Part shown: in pieces, positions 18,516 to 53,437 of the stretch | Position numbering within the stretch: position 1 is the first letter of the stretch | Layout: each line of letters opens with the position of its first letter | From: Chromera velia | Lineage: Eukaryota > Sar > Chromeraceae | Direction of reading: 5' to 3' | Assembly: GCA_018398765.1 (NCBI GenBank) | Contig: JAHBMJ010000009.1 | Location: 6,363 to 59,799, forward strand | Length of the DNA stretch: 53,437 bases | Made by a program: the position numbers and the translations under genes | The notes under the pieces: model-generated | The model's database searches: none | What the model saw: the letters and a program-made list of their open reading frames with translations, nothing else | What the model was told of the DNA's origin: nothing

Positions 18516-20548
18516 TTTCCCCAAAAAAGTAAACTAACTAACTAACTTATGAATTAAACCAGTTATAGAGGGTTTTTAGTTTAGTTAGTTTAGTTTAATA
18601 TATTAAACTGTATTACTATAAAAGGTTTGATTACTTATTGTCTGCTAGCATTGTCTGAGTCTAGGAGCGCCCGTCGAAGCCTCAGCCTAGGGTCGATCTT
18701 CTTTGTATGGGAGGCTTTGAGTCACTTTTGATCTAAATAGCAGCACCGGGAGGACCTGGTGCTGCGCGTGGATCCGAGAGCGAGAGGCACAGGCTTTTGC
18801 ACTAGCCTTGATCTTGTTGGGGTTACATGTCATTTATTGTTATCAACGACACTAGCAAGGACACTAACAATGATATTAAGCATCCTAATACTGGGAGGGA
18901 AGAGGGGTGTGGGGTGCAAAGTTGTAAACGCTCTTTAATTTGCAGCAGCTCAAATTTTAGGGTTAAACTAGGTCAAAATTGTTTAGTTAGTTTAGTTAGT
19001 TAGTTAGTTCTCCACGGGGTCATAAACTAAACTAACTAACTACTAACTAAAGTCCATGCCTAGGATGTTTAAGTTTAAATTTAAATAAGAAAAGTTGTAA
19101 TAATTGTTCAATAAATTTTGAATAAGAATTCTGATGAATTATTGTGCTATGCATTTTACTAGCTATCCCTAATCCTATTGAGTCTTCACGCGCAACTCTA
19201 AGTCCTCTTGGTGCTGCTCATCATCTGATAAAGTGACTTAACCCACCAGCTATCGTGTCCTATTCTTTAATACACTCCTAATAAACAATCTATTTAGACT
19301 AGTATTTAGATTGAAAGACTATAACATAATGAAACTAGTAATGAAAGTGACCCAGAGCCTCCTATGTACGTAGAGAAGACGCCTTCGATGAGCGCTCTTT
19401 GACTAGGTTAGGTTATTAGGACTCAAACTAACTCAGACAATGAACCTGAGTGATCAAACCGTTTCTAGAACCTTTTACGGTTTCATACATCAAACTAAAC
19501 TAACTAAACTAAAGACAAGCAAAGACCACGTATAACTAGTTTTTATCACAGTTTAGTTAGTTAGTTTAGTTTTCTGCAGAAATATAAACTAACAAAAGAA
19601 CTAAACTAACTAAAGTCTACACCTACGTAACGACTGGTTTAGTGCTTAGGTGAAGAGCTTGGTGAAGTGTTCTTGTATATGTATTTCGCCTTCCAGCAAT
19701 CGGTTGATTATGGAGGGTATACGTTTAGAAACCTGTTCACGTAGTGGTTAGCAGAGTAACTTAATTAAACATTTGTAGACTTATTATCTGACTTAACTCA
19801 ATAATCCTCATTATTACTCATTATAAGACTAATGTGAGCCGATTGTAGAACATGTAGTAATAAGTAGTAATAAGTAGACTTAGATAGACTAAGTTTAACT
19901 AAATAAAACAGTACCAAGCAGTCTTTAGTTGTAGGTGATAGTTCAAAATATAAATTTAACATAATTTAACAATTACATTACTTTTTCTGTGAAATTCCAT
20001 GATATCATGCATGACCTTCCGTTTCAGTTTGCTTTGGTACACTTCGGTCTAGAAGTGAAAGACTATGAAAGACGTATCAGAGCGGCAGAGAAGTTCAGAT
20101 GGGGTGGGTGGGGGGGGGGGACAAAGAGAGTTGGAGGGCGGTGGAATGCGGCGGAGCTTGATTTCGGGGGGGCAAGGCATTCGTAGGGTGCATGGTCCTG
20201 GCGGACTGAGGCGGGCAGGGCCCCCCCTGCTTTGGGGGGGGCCGGGACGCCGGGGGTGATCATGCATTGAAATTTGGAATGCCCTGAGAATCAATTACAA
20301 GTCCATAAAATGCTGAAGATCGTTGTCACTCTGTGAATTGATGATGCATACCGAACTCTCAATCATCTTTGGTCTGAGCAAAATTGGTCAGGATTGAGGG
20401 AAAGTGCTCTGCATTCTGTCGACAGGTTCTTCAATCTGGTTGAGACGGAGCCATCTCGTCCGACCTGGTTTTTGACACTGGATTCCACCGCTGTTTCAGT
20501 CGTCCGAACCTGCAGCTGTTCTCCCTCTTTGCCTTGTTCCTTTAAAGG

Positions 20549-23500
20549 ATGACAGCGAAGGAAGCGGATATTTTGAGTGTTCTGGTTCAGACCGGAATTT
20601 TGGGATTGCGCGGATTCTGGAAAATCTCCGCCGTCTCCAAGAAGCTTCTCTCTCTGAGAGACGATGCAACTGCTTTAGGTTTTGGCAGTGTCTGTTCAGG
20701 CTTCTCTTCTGTCACTGAGAGGCAGGAGGTATGGAGGCTGATTGACGATTGTCTCTCACGCGATGATGAGAAAGCTCTGCAGCAGCTATTTGCCCTTGCT
20801 GGGGTTTCTGGGCGTTACCCTTTTCTGCTGCGACGACTCGTAGAGAAGGGCCCCGACTCGGAAAAGTGCCGAAAATATTTGATGAAGAGGGGGGTGACTC
20901 CGTGCCTCACTGAGATTTCGTATGCGCAGCGAACCTTGGGTGGGACCAAGTTGACGAAAAAACTCGTAGACGAAATGGTCAGCCATCGTATTTTGCAAAC
21001 CGACGCCTGGTCAGTATTTCCGTCCCGGGAGGACGATTTTGTCGTCTTCGACCCTGTTTCCGTTCACTTTCTTGAGAATGACCGATTTGACTTGGCTGAG
21101 TCCCTGCTTGATGCGGGCTCACGTATGGATGTTTGTGCATGGGAGTGGGAGAGATTTCCCCGCGTTCCCGATGTGGGGGTAACGCCCCTTCAATGCTTAG
21201 TACAGCGCCTCGTGAGACTTGATTCTAAGGAGCATGCGTTGCGTCAGAAGGGGTTAGCTCTCCTTGACCGAGTTGCGAGAGCATCCAAGGCAGCCGGATG
21301 TTTGGATTGGAAGTTCGTCCATGACGATCGACGGGTGGCCGTCATGCGTGAGGGCACGGCTCTCGGTTTTGCGTGTCTCCGTCGAGATGCACAGATTGTG
21401 AGAGTGTTAGGGGGGGTGACTGAGAGAATTGATCAGGAGGGTCTTCCCTTCTTGATTCTTACGGGCGACGATGATCATTATGACCCTGAAAGACTCAGTC
21501 CAGAGAAAGTTGACAGTCGTTGTGCAGACACGCTTGAGGAACTTGCAAATATACGGGGGGTGAATCTGAATGCCGTCAACAGAGACGGACACACGCCCCT
21601 CTCTCTTGCCTGTTCTCTGGCGCTAGAGAAGAGTGCAGCAGTGCTTCTAAAGAGAGGCGCCCTGCCGAAAAGAGTGAAGGGACGGAAGAGAATGAGCCTG
21701 TCACCCCTGTATGAAGCCTTGAAAACCCGATCAGAGACCATCTGCTCTCTGCTACTTCAGTGGAAGGCAGACCCAAATGAAGTGGTGGTGGAAGGGGCAG
21801 GGGCCTGCACACTCCTGCAAAAGACACTGCTGAAGGCCTTTACCTGCCGGGAGTCGGACCGAAAAATAACCGCAGCTCTTGCAAAGCTACTGATCGAGAA
21901 CGGTGCACGAGCATGTGTGCTTTCTTCTCCCCTCCTTCCGACAACAGAAAAGGGTCAGACAGGCACTCCCCCTCTGATTGAGTTCTCAACGCTGTTGATG
22001 GCGTGTCAGACAGAGGACGCCGATTTCGTGCGTCTCCTCGTCACCAAAGGGGGGGGGGATCCGAATGCAAAGGCAAAGACCAGGGAGATGGATGCCGCAG
22101 AATGCCCCGTGTTTTTTGTTCTCTGGTATTTTCGGCATTCGGACTCGGTGATCATGTCTCTTTTGAACACTCTAGCAGAATTTGGAGCAGATCTGAAAGT
22201 TGACAGGGGTGATGGGCACAGTCTCTTGTCTCTCGCCTGCCACCATCAGTGCGGCTCTGCAGTACTGGAATTCCTTCTTGAAAAAGGGGTGCAAGTGGGA
22301 GGGCTGAGGCGAGAGGGGGGTGCGGGACCCGTCCCTCTGGTCGAGGCGGCTGCATCGCTTTGCCCCGAGAACGTTCGCGTCCTTCTGAAATGGGGTACAG
22401 AGGTGAATCATCCAGGGTTGGTGGAGGATTGGGAGGTTCAACGTCCCCCCGGAACGGTCAGGACCCTTAGGAGGGTCAGGCGTAGAACTGTCATGTTTCC
22501 GCTGCAGGCAGCTGTACAGGTACAGAAGCAAGATCGTATGCAGGAAATGTTCGCTATTGTAAAGATGTTGATTGACAATGGAGCCAAATGTCGTGCCTGC
22601 CCGTCTCCATCAATAGATGCGTCAGAACCTCCCCTTTCCGTGCTGCCGCCTCTTGAGAGCAGCGTCTCTCCGTTGTGGAAGGCGTGTGAGCTGCGAGATG
22701 CATGCCTGATACGTTTGCTTTGTGAAAAGGGGGGGGGGCTGCCCGAGGGGGGAAAGGAGGTCGGTGCCGCAGTGTCGGTTCTGGTGTCTGATAGAGATTT
22801 CCAGAGTCAGAAGGACGTGCACTGCCAGGAGGGGGCAATCTTGGAACATTGGCGCTTGGCTGAGTCGCTTTTGCAGGTAGGTGAGTGTGCGTGTGTGTGT
22901 GTGTGTGTGCGTGCGTGCGCGCGCGCGCGCGAGTGAGTGAGTGAGTGAGTGAGTGAGTGAGAGAGAGAGAGTGAGTGTGTGTGTGTGTGCTTGTGTGTGT
23001 GTGTGTGTGTGTGCGTACGTGCGTGCGTGCGTGCGTGCGCTCGAGCGAGTGAGTAAGTGAGTGAGTGAGTGTGTGAGTCTGTGTGTGTGTGTTTGCTAGG
23101 TATGTTTGTGTGTTCGCGCGCGTGCGTGTCTCTGGGTGTGCGTGTGTTTTAGTGCGCTTATGTACACGTGTGTGTACGCGTATGTGTGTGCGGTCACGTC
23201 TGCATGTGCGCGTGTTTGTCCGGGGGAAGGGGGGGAGCGCCAGACAGAAGAGGGGAGGAAGAGAGAAGGAGAATGTGTTGGTTGTTTACTCAGGTTTCTC
23301 TTCTCTGCTCGTTCAGTTTTTTCAAGGACTTCCAAGGCATATCTGGCGGCAATGCCCTCCCGGGCGTATTGTCTTTTTACAATGATTTTGCAGAATGGTT
23401 GAACTCCAACAGTCTGTACTGCAAGGCTCCAAACATGCAGGGAAACTACCTGTTGCTCCTTGTCGTTTTTACCACTGGGTGTTTCTTCATATCGATCATT

Positions 23501-24095
23501 TGCTGATTGTTTCTATCTACACTCTCATTCACTGTTTTCCTCACGGACCGATGATTTTTTTTTGCAGCAACACGGCGAAGTTGACCTTTCCTTACCTGCC
23601 TCGGACATTCCAGGAATGGTCCCGGGTTGCGGGTCTGGTTCCTGGTTCTTCGACCTGATCAGTCTCGAAGAGGCGAGGGGCCCCTCTCTGCTGAAGGTCA
23701 TTCGATCTTCCCCTTTGAAGGAACTGGACAGGATAGTGCAGGTGGCGACAGAGGGCTGGAATTCGGAAACCCACGTCTCGTCTCTGGGCATGGCAATCAG
23801 GAGTAAGTGGGAAGAGGGGGTGACTGCACTACTAGAGAGGGGGGTAAATCCGAACCTGGACCCGTTTGTTTTGTCGGAAAGCCCCCTTTTCGCGGCTTTC
23901 GATAGTGAACAATGGGATAATGCGAGATCCCTCCTCAAAAAAGGAGCGGGGCTGTTTTCTAGATGCGAGAGCGAGGCCAAAGAGTTAGAGGCAAAAAGGT
24001 GTCAATTGCCCCCCGACCTCCGATCTTTCCGACTGACTTCTTGTGCCACGACAGACGGGGTACTCAAAATTACTTTTGATAAAGACGTTGTTTGA
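20549..24095 (+). CDS. Ankyrin-repeat protein, two exons
   Basis: Exon 1 is 20549-22876 (776 codons, ending CAG before a GTAGGT donor). Exon 2 is 23568-24095, after a T-rich tract and GCAG acceptor, in the same phase, ending TGA; the total is about 951 residues. Ankyrin-type units are visible as TPLxLAC, LLxxGA and related patterns: DGHTPLSLACSLALEKS with LLKRGA, LSPLYEALKTR with LLLQWKADPN, STLLMACQTEDADFVRLL, DGHSLLSLACHHQ with FLLEKG, VPLVEAAASL with VLLKWGTEVN, VSPLWKACEL, and in exon 2 SSLGMAIRSK with LLERGVNPN and SPLFAAFDSEQWDNARSLLKK. The first 150 residues are helical-looking without a recognised domain. Ankyrin arrays bind proteins; no enzymatic domain is seen, so the partner is unknown. 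The intron (22877-23567) is full of GT and GTGA microsatellite. Exon 2 is present again downstream at 24633-25160. Possible extra small exons inside the intron cannot be excluded. Confidence 0.8.
22883..23098. repeat. GT, GTGA and GC-alternating microsatellite in the ankyrin-gene intron
   Basis: Runs of GT, GTGC, GC and GTGA repeat over about 215 bases, starting seven bases after the donor. Alternating purine-pyrimidine DNA of this kind is difficult to assemble, which matters for the duplication next to it. Confidence 0.9.
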
Positions 24096-24153: not shown

Positions 24154-25182
24154 GTGCGTGCGCGCGTTTGTGTGCGTGTCGCGCGCGTGCGTGTCTCTGG
24201 GTGTGCGTGTGTTTTAGTGCGCTTATGTACACGTGTGTGTACGCGTATGTGTGTGCGGTCACGTCTGCATGTGCGCGTGTTTGTCCGGGGGAAGGGGGGG
24301 AGCGCCAGACAGAAGAGGGGAGGAAGAGAGAAGGAGAATGTGTTGGTTGTTTACTCAGGTTTCTCTTCTCTGCTCGTTCAGTTTTTTCAAGGACTTCCAA
24401 GGCATATCTGGCGGCAATGCCCTCCCGGGCGTATTGTCTTTTTACAATGATTTTGCAGAATGGTTGAACTCCAACAGTCTGTACTGCAAGGCTCCAAACA
24501 TGCAGGGAAACTACCTGTTGCTCCTTGTCGTTTTTACCACTGGGTGTTTCTTCATATCGATCATTTGCTGATTGTTTCTATCTACACTCTCATTCACTGT
24601 TTTCCTCACGGACCGATGATTTTTTTTTGCAGCAACACGGCGAAGTTGACCTTTCCTTACCTGCCTCGGACATTCCAGGAATGGTCCCGGGTTGCGGGTC
24701 TGGTTCCTGGTTCTTCGACCTGATCAGTCTCGAAGAGGCGAGGGGCCCCTCTCTGCTGAAGGTCATTCGATCTTCCCCTTTGAAGGAACTGGACAGGATA
24801 GTGCAGGTGGCGACAGAGGGCTGGAATTCGGAAACCCACGTCTCGTCTCTGGGCATGGCAATCAGGAGTAAGTGGGAAGAGGGGGTGACTGCACTACTAG
24901 AGAGGGGGGTAAATCCGAACCTGGACCCGTTTGTTTTGTCGGAAAGCCCCCTTTTCGCGGCTTTCGATAGTGAACAATGGGATAATGCGAGATCCCTCCT
25001 CAAAAAAGGAGCGGGGCTGTTTTCTAGATGCGAGAGCGAGGCCAAAGAGTTAGAGGCAAAAAGGTGTCAATTGCCCCCCGACCTCCGATCTTTCCGACTG
25101 ACTTCTTGTGCCACGACAGACGGGGTACTCAAAATTACTTTTGATAAAGACGTTGTTTGATTCACTACCTTTGATCAACTGA
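23114..25182. repeat. Direct tandem duplication, about 1,004-bp units 1,065 bp apart
   Basis: The segment from about 23114 to 24117 recurs at about 24179 to 25182. By eye the copies are the same in coding and intronic parts. Copy one ends at an N at 24118, followed by a GT microsatellite that leads into copy two. Both copies hold the ankyrin-gene exon 2 with its acceptor and stop. Confidence 0.9.
24633..25160 (+). pseudogene. Second copy of ankyrin-gene exon 2
   Basis: This is the copy of exon 2 (23568-24095) in the tandem duplication, with the same T-rich acceptor, frame and TGA stop. Because the first copy already ends in a stop, this one would only be used by alternative splicing that skips copy one. 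It is either a very recent duplication or an assembly artefact. Confidence 0.6.
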
Positions 25183-47632: not shown

Positions 47633-48573
47633 GCGCTTCTGATAGGCTGTGGAGCCGGGCAGCAACGGTTTCTCTGCACACCGAAGAGAAGCGAGAAGCG
47701 TGAATGCGATACGAGAGAGGATGGAAGCATGCTCACGGCAACTTCTGGTGGACGGCTTGTGGCGAGGCTGAGTGTCCCGAGGAAAAGCGAGTCGGCCGAA
47801 CGACGCGTCGATGCCTTCCCTTCCAAGGTTGATGAAGCGATTGTAGCTTTGACTCTAGCTTTGACTCTGTACAAAAATAGATTTTTATTTTTTATCCTGG
47901 GCCTATGGGGTCATGGGCCACAAACCTGAGTTTAGAATTTAGATTTGCATGGACTGATTCAACCCCTTAGCTAAGTATTTAAAAACCACAGAACAATTAT
48001 GATTGGTCGATGCCTAGGCAGCCTAGTCCCTAGCCTAGTCCATAGTGTTTAGCAGTGGAGTCTAGAGTAAAGTATGAGTTAGGTAGGTTTTACTAGGATC
48101 GAAAACGACATAACATAGTCGACACCACTAACAAATCCTAGAAAGCCCTAGAGATAAGAAAATCACTAAAAACTAAACTAAAAGCTAAATTAAGACTCTT
48201 AAAATTAATGAGCTATTGTCAAAGCTAAGAGCTTACATAAGTTTTTAGCTTACAGTCACCCTAGAGAGTCACCTCGAAGATTTGAGATTAAAGGTTCAGA
48301 TTTGAAGTAGATTTGATAGGATTTGATAGGTCGTATCATGCTAAAGTTTCTCAGGCCTAAGATTTGATTTGAGATTAAGCTCTACTTTAAATCAAATCAA
48401 ATCAAATCTGGTCACTATTATCAGTTCATCTAGTTTGGTAACTTTGGTATACTTTTATCAAAGATTGACACTGTTGGTCTAGGTAAAATTAGGCAAACTA
48501 TGAAATGTCAGCATTGTATTGAAACATAAATGTCGTTGTCGATCAGTGCCGTTTATACGTTTAGTGTCAATAA
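47633..48573. other. AT-rich spacer upstream of the copia element
   Basis: No gene is supported. The stretch 48280-48412 is made of GATTTGA and AAATCAAATC units. A short inverted repeat (AATAACGG and CCGTTATT, 48569-48599) sits where the recognisable retroelement sequence begins. Confidence 0.5.
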
Positions 48574-51500
48574 CGGCATTTATTGCCCACCACCGTTATT
48601 AATTTTCTCCATGCAGAAAATGACCTGTTTTTTCTGCCTCTGGAGATAGACAGGACTTCCCCACCCAAGTCCCCACCCATTTCGAATTCCCATTCCGTGT
48701 CTCCAGAGGCCGTTGCAGTGGGTCCTGCATTGCCTGTGTCCCCTCCGTTGTCTCCTTCTCCTGTTGTCCTTGCAAATGGGCACCTCCCCGCTCGTTTGAA
48801 GGCAGCTAAACAGAGGAAGCACCAACGAGGAAATCGCACCTAGTCTCATGTTGTGCAAGCCCATTCAGAAGAATCTGCTGTCTCTCCCCCCGTTTCTTCA
48901 TTTTATGACAGTTCTCCAGCCTCCGCTCAGCAGCCCCAATCTTCTTCCTCACAGGACCTCCCTCCCATCTCAATAAAAGCCACTGTTGATGAACTCATCC
49001 GCGCACATCACGAATGGTTAGGACATGCCGGTATCGAGGCCACTTGGCGTTCCCTCCGTGCGTCCCTTTCTGACCTCCTTCCCGGTCGTAGCAGCATTTC
49101 CCGCCATGCCGTTCAACGCGCCCTGCTCCCATACATCCGAGGGGGTACGTGTGCGCACATGAAGCCGAGGCATGGGGGGGACGGCACCCGGGGGTCTTTG
49201 AAGGTCGATCGCCCCAGGTAGCGAGTGTGTTGTGACCTGGTGATGGGGTTGAAGGGGGGGTACTCGTTACACATCCAAGATCAGCATGATGATTGGCTCG
49301 CCCAAGAGGTAGTCGAAACAAAAGACTCCGCCACAATCTGTGCTACCTATGATTGTTGGTCCCGCAGTCTGGAGGGTGACCTCACTCCTGAGGTGATGAC
49401 CGATCACGGACCCGAATTTCAAGGCGACTGGTATGAGTGGTTGGCTGAGCGGGAAGCTACAAACCCTTTAACCCCTGTGGGCAGCCACCACTCTCTCGGC
49501 AAAACAGAGCGTTCCTATCATGAGTGGCTCATGATCTTATGGGGCATTTTGAGAGATCGTGGTCTTGACGATTCGCATTGGAAGGAGTTTGCTTCTCTTG
49601 CGACAGCGACATACAATCGTCAGCCTCGAAGGTCCTCTCACAAGAGCCCCTTTGAGCGACGCTGGGGTGCTTAGCCACCCAGTCCTCCCATCGACGCCCT
49701 GCATGACCTTCTTTAGACCTTCCATCGTCCCTCTGCTGAGATGTCTCCCTTTCTCATTGGCTCGTCTGTTTTGTATCATCACCCCGATCACCCCCGCGCC
49801 AAACTTGCCCCCCTGTACACTCCTGCGACTATGCTGCAGCGCATTAGCGAGCATGTGTTCCGCTTACGTCTCCCTTTAGGACGTCCCATCCTGTTACATC
49901 GCAGGTGCATCCGTCCCAATGATAGCCCCAACCCCGACCCCGTCTATGTCGTTCCATTGCCGTTGGACTCCCCTCTTGAGCGTGCGGATACATCCGTTGG
50001 GTCTTCTCAGTAGCAGGAGCAGCAGCAGTAGCAGTCTTCTGACTCGCCGTGTTCGTCTGCCCCGCATTCTTCCCCCAAGTTTGATATCACCGATTTTGGC
50101 AAAGATGAGCTCATTTTTTGGCGGGATGAGAATACAGGCCGCTGCTTCCTTAGTAGCATCCGTGCTGTCGACCCTGAGGGTGAGGGACGGGTTGAGGTTC
50201 AGGCATGGGGGTTAAATGGCAAGCAGTCTCTTGCCAGCCGACGTATGCAGCCTGCATGGTACCCTTTCAGGGGCCACCCCAAACTTTTGTACGGTGCGCA
50301 GAAACCTTCTGGGTATGGGCCCGAGCTTTGTTTTCTGGTGCCAGAAGAGGTGGTGGAGAGAAACATTGTCCTCTCTGCCGAGGGAACCCTCCCCTCCCAC
50401 CTTTGTAACACTTACCGAAGTGTTCTTCTGGCCAGCCCAGAAACTGTGTTCCCCACCGATCGGTTGTCTTCTAATTACCTTGCCTCCTCAGCAGCTGCGG
50501 CTGCCATCTTCTCTCCTCCCCCCCACCCAACTCCCGTTGCAGGTGCCTCTGTTGTGTACTTGTGGAACGAGGATGATGAGGTGGGGCCTGGTGCGTTCTA
50601 AGCTGCGACAACTCATATTCCCCTCCCCTGCCGGGGACTCATAGTAGAACAACTCGATGGGAGAGCCCAGTCCCGTGCCGCCGAGTTGCAGTTCCTTGCC
50701 GATAACGATGCGTACAAGCGAGTCCCAATCGCCGAAGTAAACGCCGAGCACCGCCGCTCTGCAGTGCCCACGCATTTTGTTGACACCGAGAAGCGTGTTG
50801 AGGAAGGTGCTTGGACTTACAAGTCTAGAGTCGTTGCTGACGGCACTCCTTTCTTCGACCGCCATGAAGGAGTCACCACGTCTTGCGCTACCGTCTCCTA
50901 GTCTGCTATACATATTGCCCTTGCCATGGCATTTGCCCATTCCGATTTTAACCCCCGTGAAATCGTTGTAGCCGATGTGAAAACAGCATATCTCACGGCT
51001 CTCCATTCCGATTCCCTTTACGTCCATCCCCCAAAAGATCACCCTGACCATGGGCAGTTCCTGTGGCTCCTCAACCGAGCGCTTTACGGACTTCGCGATT
51101 CTGGTAATCTGTGGGACCGCTCTCGCAATAAGACGCTCGCAGCAGCAGGGTGGGTGCCTTCCTCTGTTTGAGGAATATGGTGGAAATAGACGGGTAAGCC
51201 TGAGGCCCCCACTTCACGCCTCCTTAGGATTCTCCCCACTTTTGTTGACGACTTTGCCATCCTACCCATTGGTCGATCTGCAGTTCAGCTTGCGCACGAG
51301 ATCGCAACCAAAGGAGGTTACCAGATGAAGATCACCAAACCCAAGAACGGAATCCTCCGCTGGGCAGGGGTGGATTTCAATGTGTCACGAGACTCTGTGC
51401 ACATCCACCAAACCAAGTACCTCCTGTCTCTCCCCCTCCCTGAAGGTATGGGAGAGTCTGAAGATTTTTCCGCATCCACTCCCTCTTCCGTTCCCATTCC

Positions 51501-52362
51501 TTCTCCCGATTTGTTCCCCCTCTCCCCATCGTCTTGCGAGCTTCCTTTTGAACCGCCTCGTCTCTTGACAGCCCAAGAAGGCAAAGCCTTTCGTGAACGG
51601 CTGGGGTGTCTTTCGTGGGTTGCACGAGATACTCGCCCTGACTTGTCCTAAGGGTACAATCAACTGAGCCGTCATTCGTCCGCTCCCACTCAAGCCGACG
51701 CTGCTTACCTCCTTTCGCTTCTCCGTTATGCCCGTCGCACCGTAACCTCCCGTATCCTCCGTATCTCCCGCTCTGATGTCCCTCCCATATCGTCTCCCCT
51801 CTCCACTAAGTCATAGAGCGATGCCGCGTTGGGGTCTGCAAGAAATGCGCATCCACAGTCTGGGTGGCTCTTCACTTTAAAGTCTGCCATCCTGCACTGG
51901 CGGGCCTTTTCTCAGAAGCAAGTCGCCAGGTCTTCCACCCGAGCAGAGCTCTATGCTGCTCATGACCTCGTTGATTTCTTAGAGTGCCTCTTGCCTGTCC
52001 TGCGGTGCGTCTGGAAAGCGGGAGTCACAGCGGAAGTGGGGGTAGACTTAAATGACTTGCTGAAGCTGGTTTCTAGTGAGATGCCCCGTCTGACCGAGCG
52101 TGCCCTCCAGTCCGTCATCGAGTCACTTCAGCTCGGCATCATCAAAAAATCGCCCTGCACACTTGTTTTGCATACCTTTTCCCTCCGTGATGCGTTAGAT
52201 GAAGCTTCCATCCGCCTTTCGTTCGTCCCTTCTCATTCTAATATGGCTGACCCTTTCACAAAGCCCATGTCAATTGAGCTTTTACTCCCTTATTTCACTT
52301 CCCTCTCCCCTCATCCTGACAGTGTGACATCGTCCCCATCAGATTTTCCGATTGTCCTGTAA
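48574..52362 (+). pseudogene. pol: Copia pol: integrase, reverse transcriptase, RNase H with 12 in-frame stops
   Basis: One frame runs from 48574 to the TAA at 52360 without a frameshift. Integrase: HHEWLGHAG (49006) as pre-integrase motif, then the core with TDHGPEF (49399) and HHSLGKTERSYHEW, where the catalytic Glu is codon 49507. Reverse transcriptase: ADVKTAYL (about 50971), LLNRALYGLRDSGNLW (51067), FVDD (51241). RNase H: SDAALGSA (51817), SSTRAELYA, and MADPFTKPM near the end. Internal stops: TAG at 48841, 49219, 49672, 49714, 50011, 50029, 50899, 51187 and 51814; TAA at 50599 and 51649; TGA at 51169. Nearly all catalytic landmarks are intact. It cannot be translated by the standard code as read. 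Confidence 0.9.
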
Positions 52363-52383
52363 AAAAAAAAAAAAAGGAAGTCA

Positions 52384-52677
52384 TGTAATCAGCCACTTAT
52401 AGAGAGGCGGCGGCGGGCGTGCAGTGGTCGGCCCGACTCGGTCGGTCTCGAGCCGCGGCGTTGCTTATCGGAGCAGCACGGCTGGAGGCATTACGGAGAG
52501 TATGCATGTATTGATCCATGTTGTGAAGTTGATTCGCGCAATACTTCGAGTGATTCAATAAAGCAACTCTCAATAGATGAGAGCAGAAGCCGGACAGAAG
52601 TCGTGTAGTATTATTCCTGTATAAAGAACCGTAAGATTGACTGGACTGTCCTTGACTGGACTCTCTAGTTCATTACA
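52384..52677 (+). repeat. 3' LTR of the copia element
   Basis: About 294 bp begin TGTAATC and end CATTACA, so the termini are a 6-bp inverted repeat (TGTAAT and ATTACA). An AATAAA polyadenylation signal lies near 52557. It follows directly on the polypurine tract. Confidence 0.8.
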
Positions 52678-53437
52678 CCCATAGTATTTACAAACTCTAT
52701 GTTTTACTCAAAACATATATCATAATAAACTAGAATGCTGTAATCTCTAACCTAATTCTAATTCACCCTATAGTCTAGATGATGATAAATAAATAATCAT
52801 ATAATTTTAAATTTACACTTGTCAAGTATAAGTTGTGAATTTAAAGAATAAACATCAACTTTGAAATTATATAATTTTTTTATTTAAACAAGAAAGTTGA
52901 GCTAGCAACATCATCAACATATTTCTCCCGATTTCGCTTTGCATATATTAATATATAATTGTTTGGGCAATTTTTGTTCCTGCCAATGATTTAATTACCG
53001 TTAAATTTGTTTAATGAATGTTTTATATGATCTAAGGTATGGTCTAAGGTCCTAGGTAGTCTTCTGAAGTTAGTGACCATGTTTGATTTGATTTGATTTG
53101 ATTTGATTTGAGGTAGGGCTTAAGCTCAAATCAAATATCCAGTCAGGGAGGATCTAGTGTTTAAAGATCTATCAAATACGATCAAATATTTGATTAATAT
53201 GACTTTCAACCTCAAATATGAAGGTCCCGAAAAAACTTTTGCAAGTACCGATCCGTCACGCATGCTGATTCAAATAAAAAAACCTAAATCTTGATAGTTT
53301 ACTCTCAAGAAAAAAACGTTTTGAGCTGCACTGAAATTGACGTTTCACCCCCTTTTACTTCATGCAGAGGTAAACCGATCAGCTGAACGTTTTCCCAAAC
53401 AGCTGTGTTGACTTTTCTGGTGCTGGAACATCTTTTA
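52678..53437. other. AT-rich flank
   Basis: No gene is supported. A GATTT repeat with an adjoining inverted segment (53080-53134) matches 48358-48412 in reverse complement. Confidence 0.5.

Follow-up and report, generated by a model that had tools for sequence, protein, structure and literature searches.

A dead Copia-type retrotransposon copy in Chromera velia with twelve in-frame stops, and a post-insertion C-to-T bias in its family

The retroelement described here lies in a stretch of 53,437 nucleotides from Chromera velia (contig JAHBMJ010000009.1, C9 in our comparison), which was analysed as a whole and is called the window below. Its features are collected in Table 1. Including the 3′ LTR, the Copia copy spans 48586–52677. 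RVT_2, the Copia-type reverse transcriptase, scored above the Pfam cut-off at 50902–51168 (E 2.9e-8); in the pieces between stops, rve (upstream and weak) and Integrase_H2C2 reached only sub-cut-off scores, and four of the seven pieces gave no Pfam match. RVT_2, the weak rve and the LTR pair known from relatives place the element in the Copia (Ty1) group. The relatives carry two LTRs of ~294 bp and measure ~6.1 kb in total, whereas the window copy retains only its 3′ LTR and lacks ~2 kb that they possess (the 5′ LTR and ~1.7 kb). The element is a dead, 5′-truncated Copia copy. Its alignable part begins at 48586, and the neighbouring repeat ends at ~48583. An earlier note on this DNA had placed the pol frame at 48574–52362; the frame does run to the terminal TAA, but the first 12 nt of that span do not belong to the element. 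On the 5′ side, 48101–48418 is a ~320-bp repeat with ~30 other places in the genome, and 48386–48583 has two other places. Part of the ~320-bp repeat (48311–48408) has an inverted partner at 53090–53187, across the Copia copy, and 47007–47831 matches three other places in the genome at 92% identity.

Table 1. The Copia copy and the repetitive DNA at its 5′ border (positions in the window)
Feature	Position	Strand	Basis
Pol frame of the dead Copia-type copy, with 12 internal stops, without frameshift and without the 5′ part of the element	48586..52359	+	
Internal stops (12)	48841, 49219, 49672, 49714, 50011, 50029, 50599, 50899, 51169, 51187, 51649, 51814 (within 48841..51816)	+	
Terminal stop of the pol frame, TAA	52360..52362	+	translation
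3′ LTR, ~294 bp	52384..52677	+	matches both ends of relatives, e.g. L010, L014
Other repetitive DNA adjoining the truncated 5′ end of the Copia copy	48101..48583		

The genome used for comparison comprised 177.8 Mb in 4040 contigs; for the published C. velia genome, PMC4501334 gives 193.66 Mb in 5953 scaffolds, with ~30 Mb of transposons. Related sequence occurred at 40 or more places, of which 20 were fetched, including the window copy, so that 19 other copies were compared. Group A consisted of the window copy and seven copies at 92.7–94.5% identity, and group B of twelve copies with ~85–87% identity in the main matches. A change was counted as private where one copy differed from at least five other aligned copies of its group that agreed. 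The most diverged copy, L022 (267 private changes), was excluded from the group B rates, the group B totals of private changes and the stop expectation; it was included in the codon comparison at stop sites and in the per-copy tally of private changes. L020 and L021 were aligned over only about half of the region.

Translation of 48574–52362 gave nine TAG, two TAA and one TGA internal stops in an unshifted frame, and comparison with the seven close copies bore out this reading of the earlier note. At ten of the twelve sites the relatives carried CAG, CAA or CGA, which the note had assumed throughout; at the remaining two they carried TGG, changed by G>A. The stops thus arose from cytosines turned into thymine. 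At each of the twelve sites, a sense codon stands in most aligned copies. Stops at ten sites recur in at least one other copy; such copies occur here and there in both subfamilies, a scatter that recurrent mutation of the same convertible codons would produce. Position 51649 has a stop in 7 of the 18 aligned copies, from both subfamilies, and is a possible deamination hotspot. We also considered an excess or a conservation of stops and rejected both: the window copy has 12 stops, where 8.4 would follow from the rate measured in the same copy at positions that cannot yield a stop (Poisson P = 0.14), and the eight group A copies show 41 stop-making changes where mutation alone predicts 44.7. Among changes at CpA and CpG (CpR), those making stops were somewhat less frequent than synonymous ones (0.048 versus 0.066 in group A, 0.040 versus 0.070 in group B). 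This deficit speaks against strict neutrality; it may reflect mild selection, whether preceding insertion or following it, or a slow CAG context.

The coding part of the window copy contains no indel of its own when set against the seven close copies. Among those seven, only L011 has a frame-changing indel, one of 17 nt. Four of the twelve group B copies, two of them half-length, are free of frame-changing indels, and in L017 and L026 such indels add up to a multiple of three. The absence of indels reported in the earlier note holds for the coding part of the window copy; the loss of ~2 kb on the 5′ side means that decay did include one structural event.

The substitutions were dominated by one class. 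Private changes of the window copy numbered 85 (44 C>T, 35 G>A, 2 T>C and 4 transversions), so that 79 were C:G>T:A. In the coding part of group A the same class made up 373 of 418 (201 C>T, 172 G>A), the rest being 18 reverse transitions and 27 transversions, the latter over 25,205 sites. Group B without L022 gave 454 of 545; L022 alone was less biased (154/267). Third codon positions of the element, taken separately, still gave 138/159. Per site, C>T (0.0264) and G>A (0.0306) were nearly symmetric between strands, against 0.0014–0.0016 for reverse transitions. In group A the changes fell on 136 of 2672 CpG, 128 of 3070 CpA and 131 of 8255 CpC and CpT sites, i.e. at rates of 0.051, 0.042 and 0.016 (CpG/CpA versus CpC + CpT: odds ratio 3.0, P 1.3e-25). 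The CpR rate is thus ~30 times that of reverse transitions; CpC and CpT are likewise raised, about tenfold. These results support the cytosine deamination of transposons that the earlier note had put forward, and the excess of C-to-T and G-to-A that it expected from an alignment appeared among the 20 copies, but in CpA plus CpG and not in a single dinucleotide. The outcomes it had named beforehand as contrary, namely relatives without CAG, CAA or CGA at the stop sites, or frequent transversions and indels, did not occur: these codons stand at ten of the twelve sites, and transversions and frame-changing indels are rare.

Preferential CHG methylation was rejected as a description of the context, as CAG had the lowest rate of the CAN triplets in group A (0.028) and neither CTG nor CCG was raised. 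In group B, CAG (0.032) was near-lowest, next to CAC (0.030). The numerous TAG stops are consequently not due to targeting of CAG; codon use is their likelier cause. Significant runs of one strand (P < 0.01) were seen in one of the 19 copies (L026), while C>T and G>A changes were intermingled in the other 18, and no clustering along the element was detected in the five copies tested. This arrangement fits a process acting on double-stranded genomic DNA, not on cDNA. Copies with more changes of other types also carried a higher C>T load (Spearman 0.50, P 0.03, for 19 copies that differ in length), as slow accumulation predicts, and the loads varied little in kind from copy to copy (heterogeneity P 0.008 for all copies together and 0.09 inside either group).

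The two LTRs of a copy are identical at insertion, so that differences between them date from later. LTR pairs were obtained from 11 copies; the pair of L016, with only 48 aligned bases and no difference, was left out, and the other ten gave 107 differences, of which 100 were transitions. Private C:G>T:A changes were distributed about evenly over codon positions. Differences between the subfamilies, i.e. those fixed or nearly fixed with at most one dissenter per group, comprised 141 transitions and 88 transversions (38%), and 169 of these 229 (74%) lay at position 3. Taken together, the LTR pairs and the contrast in codon positions indicate that the element lineage evolved under selection and with a more ordinary spectrum, and that C>T changes hit the inserted copies. 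Divergence mainly at position 3 also identifies the sense protein as the selected product.

The bias is not confined to Copia. A second retroelement family, of RVT_1 type (12 copies, up to 1.5 kb), gave 170 C:G>T:A changes out of 211 in the same contexts. Its copies (L040 to L051) are young and carry between 0 and 2 indels each along this length. Twelve copies of the ~320-bp repeat were partially biased (35/64), with CpA and CpG raised. Host genes were sampled through light-harvesting proteins, which had 58 matches in the genome; one of these proteins, compared with PDB, had relatives of fucoxanthin and peridinin type. Two sets of duplicated genes (4 and 5 copies) gave 5/18 and 14/80 C:G>T:A changes; these sets are small, coding and under selection, and most of their changes lack direction because 14/18 and 72/80 fall on one divergent copy. 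Irrespective of direction, 52 of 98 changes in the gene duplicates were transitions; group A had 391 such changes among its 418 (P 4.7e-20). The duplicates, few and short coding sequences with 551–670 aligned bases at ~96–99% identity, showed no C>T bias. On these small samples the bias is absent from host gene duplicates, and transposons are biased while the few host genes sampled are apparently spared. Continued indefinitely, the element spectrum predicts an equilibrium GC content of 6–10%; in the rest of the window, GC content is 49%, CpA is 1.11 times and TpA 0.56 times its expectation. Both the element and the remaining sequence have CpG at 0.72 of expectation, and CpG loss may therefore be partly general.

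A search with the PF00145 profile (E ≤ 0.001), run exon by exon, returned four exon matches on three contigs, which we assign to three genes. The best PDB match of L029 and of L030 was DNMT2; L030 and L031 belong to one gene, L031 having been scanned with Pfam only. The third gene (L032 and L052) is called DNMT2-like on the resemblance of its exons to the other two genes. The C5-methyltransferases found so far, in an inventory left incomplete by the exon-wise search, are these three DNMT2-like genes, and no RID-type gene was seen among the matches. The DNMT1-RFD and APOBEC_N profiles matched nothing in this genome and nothing in the control genomes either. A gene with an SRA domain, a reader of methylated DNA, was found as two exons at C2797:69898-70705. 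DNMT2 is described as chiefly a tRNA enzyme in PMC9246332, and DNA activity is reported for PfDNMT2 of Plasmodium in PMC10164579. In the open-access papers listed for Chromera together with methylation or DNMT2, none of these terms appeared in a title or abstract, and among those listed for RIP in algae or protists no report from an alga or alveolate was seen.

The post-insertion C:G>T:A bias is strand-symmetric, favours a purine 3′ of the cytosine and is present in another retroelement family. DNA methyltransferases prefer particular bases 3′ of the target cytosine, and an excess of C>T on both strands, after insertion and in such a 3′ context, is what deamination of 5-methylcytosine (5mC) would leave behind. 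We consider that transposon-targeted cytosine methylation, followed by deamination of the inserted copies, probably made this decay. Methylation would be placed on transposon chromatin; after insertion, 5mC would deaminate to thymine on both strands, mostly at CpA and CpG, and codons for Gln, Arg and Trp would become stops far more quickly than background indels and transversions break the frame. We infer both the 5mC intermediate and a methyltransferase that would place it. The SRA-domain gene is an indirect sign of such methylation. Less in keeping with this reading are the find of DNMT2-like methyltransferases only, a family acting chiefly on tRNA, the equal CpG depletion inside and outside the element, the small and mostly undirected gene control, the raised CpC and CpT rates, and the weaker bias of the ~320-bp repeat and of L022.

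We favour this methylation-linked deamination over RIP-like active mutagenesis, in which, as in Ascomycota, an enzyme would recognise repeats and mutate their cytosines to thymine in bursts, and which seems unlikely here. RIP-like mutagenesis would account for C:G>T:A changes on both strands of repeats, for gene duplicates that look spared and for a CpR rate far above that of reverse transitions. According to section 13 of PMC9246332, spontaneous deamination is probably not fast enough to explain fungal RIP, and a RIP-like process may have evolved outside fungi. The graded loads, which vary little in kind between copies and rise with their other changes, speak against it, and no RID-type gene was seen in the incomplete exon-wise search. 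The context of classical Neurospora RIP is CpA, and CpA was not above CpG in group A. Moreover, homology-triggered RIP mutates any long duplicate, genes included; the near-identical gene duplicates, though short, few and coding, are within its expected reach and carry no C>T bias, and their apparent sparing speaks against the classical form of the process. A more specific version appears doubtful: a RIP-like, non-fungal genome defence in this photosynthetic alga, itself probably an alveolate, would mutate transposons at CpA and CpG, and its agent might be an enzyme of the DNMT2 family redirected from tRNA to transposon DNA. Such an enzyme is proposed since the search has so far turned up no C5-methyltransferases other than the three DNMT2-like genes.

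A genome-wide C>T bias, from a recent mutator or from lost repair of uracil or 5mC, and merely visible in repeats, is improbable. It would be compatible with the bias in both of the two retroelement families, with the equal CpG depletion outside the element, and with directed changes that all come from repeats and coding duplicates, none from single-copy noncoding DNA. The share of transitions in the gene duplicates argues against it, as do the third codon positions of the element, which keep the bias. In base and CpA content, the remaining sequence of the window also lies a long way from the equilibrium that this spectrum predicts, although equilibrium would not yet be attained under a recent mutator either. 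Editing of retrotransposon cDNA or single-stranded DNA by APOBEC/AID-type enzymes would likewise produce a C>T excess in a retroelement, but is highly improbable: these deaminases select on the 5′ side of the cytosine, whereas the context here lies 3′ of it; C>T and G>A changes occur equally often and intermingled, with strand runs only in L026; and APOBEC_N was not found, in a search that was also without a match in control genomes. The last alternative, raised in the earlier note, is that the stops are tolerated or recoded by read-through in a living element, and that shared stop positions would betray this. The sharing at ten sites is real, yet its scatter over both subfamilies is that of recurrent mutation. 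With a sense codon in most copies at every site, stop-making changes no rarer or commoner than mutation alone predicts, selection for the sense protein and a copy that lacks its 5′ LTR, read-through fails, and we give it practically no credence.

The pattern seen here has partial counterparts in known systems. Methylated transposons of plants and animals undergo C>T decay after insertion through deamination of 5mC, as seen here; the present copies differ from plants in having no CHG signal, and from CpG-only methylation in that CpA equals CpG. In the alveolate Symbiodinium, a dinoflagellate, PMC5890265 describes CH methylation (~1%) that lies mainly on transposons and, as here, has no preference for CHG over CHH, together with CG methylation on genes and transposons alike. 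As described there, it offers an alveolate precedent for transposon-directed non-CG methylation; in C. velia, where the pattern is known from mutations alone, CpA is as strong as CpG and the sampled genes look spared. Ascomycota RIP (PMC9246332) shares C:G>T:A changes on both strands of repeats and stops without indels; here, CpA is not above CpG, the sampled near-identical gene duplicates look spared, no RID gene was seen in the exon-wise search, and the host lies outside fungi. PfDNMT2 (PMC10164579), with its reported DNA activity, resembles the C5-methyltransferase genes found here in being of DNMT2 type; these are three in number, and any action of theirs on DNA would be hypothetical. Our refinements of the original proposal are the CpA plus CpG context on both strands, the post-insertion timing and the apparent sparing of genes. 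If the preferred reading is true, sequence alone would predict transposon-specific methylation of CpG and CpA in an alga whose methyltransferases, as far as found, are all DNMT2-like. It would then become testable whether enzymes of the DNMT2 family can act on DNA here and whether mutational transposon defence arose outside fungi.

Two further observations concern the rest of the window. The open frames at 23403–24095 and 24468–25160 have identical translations, with dinucleotide repeats and an unresolved base between them, and stem either from duplication in tandem or from an error of assembly. At 20546–22936 there is an open frame of 796 amino acids that resembles an ankyrin-repeat protein by eye.
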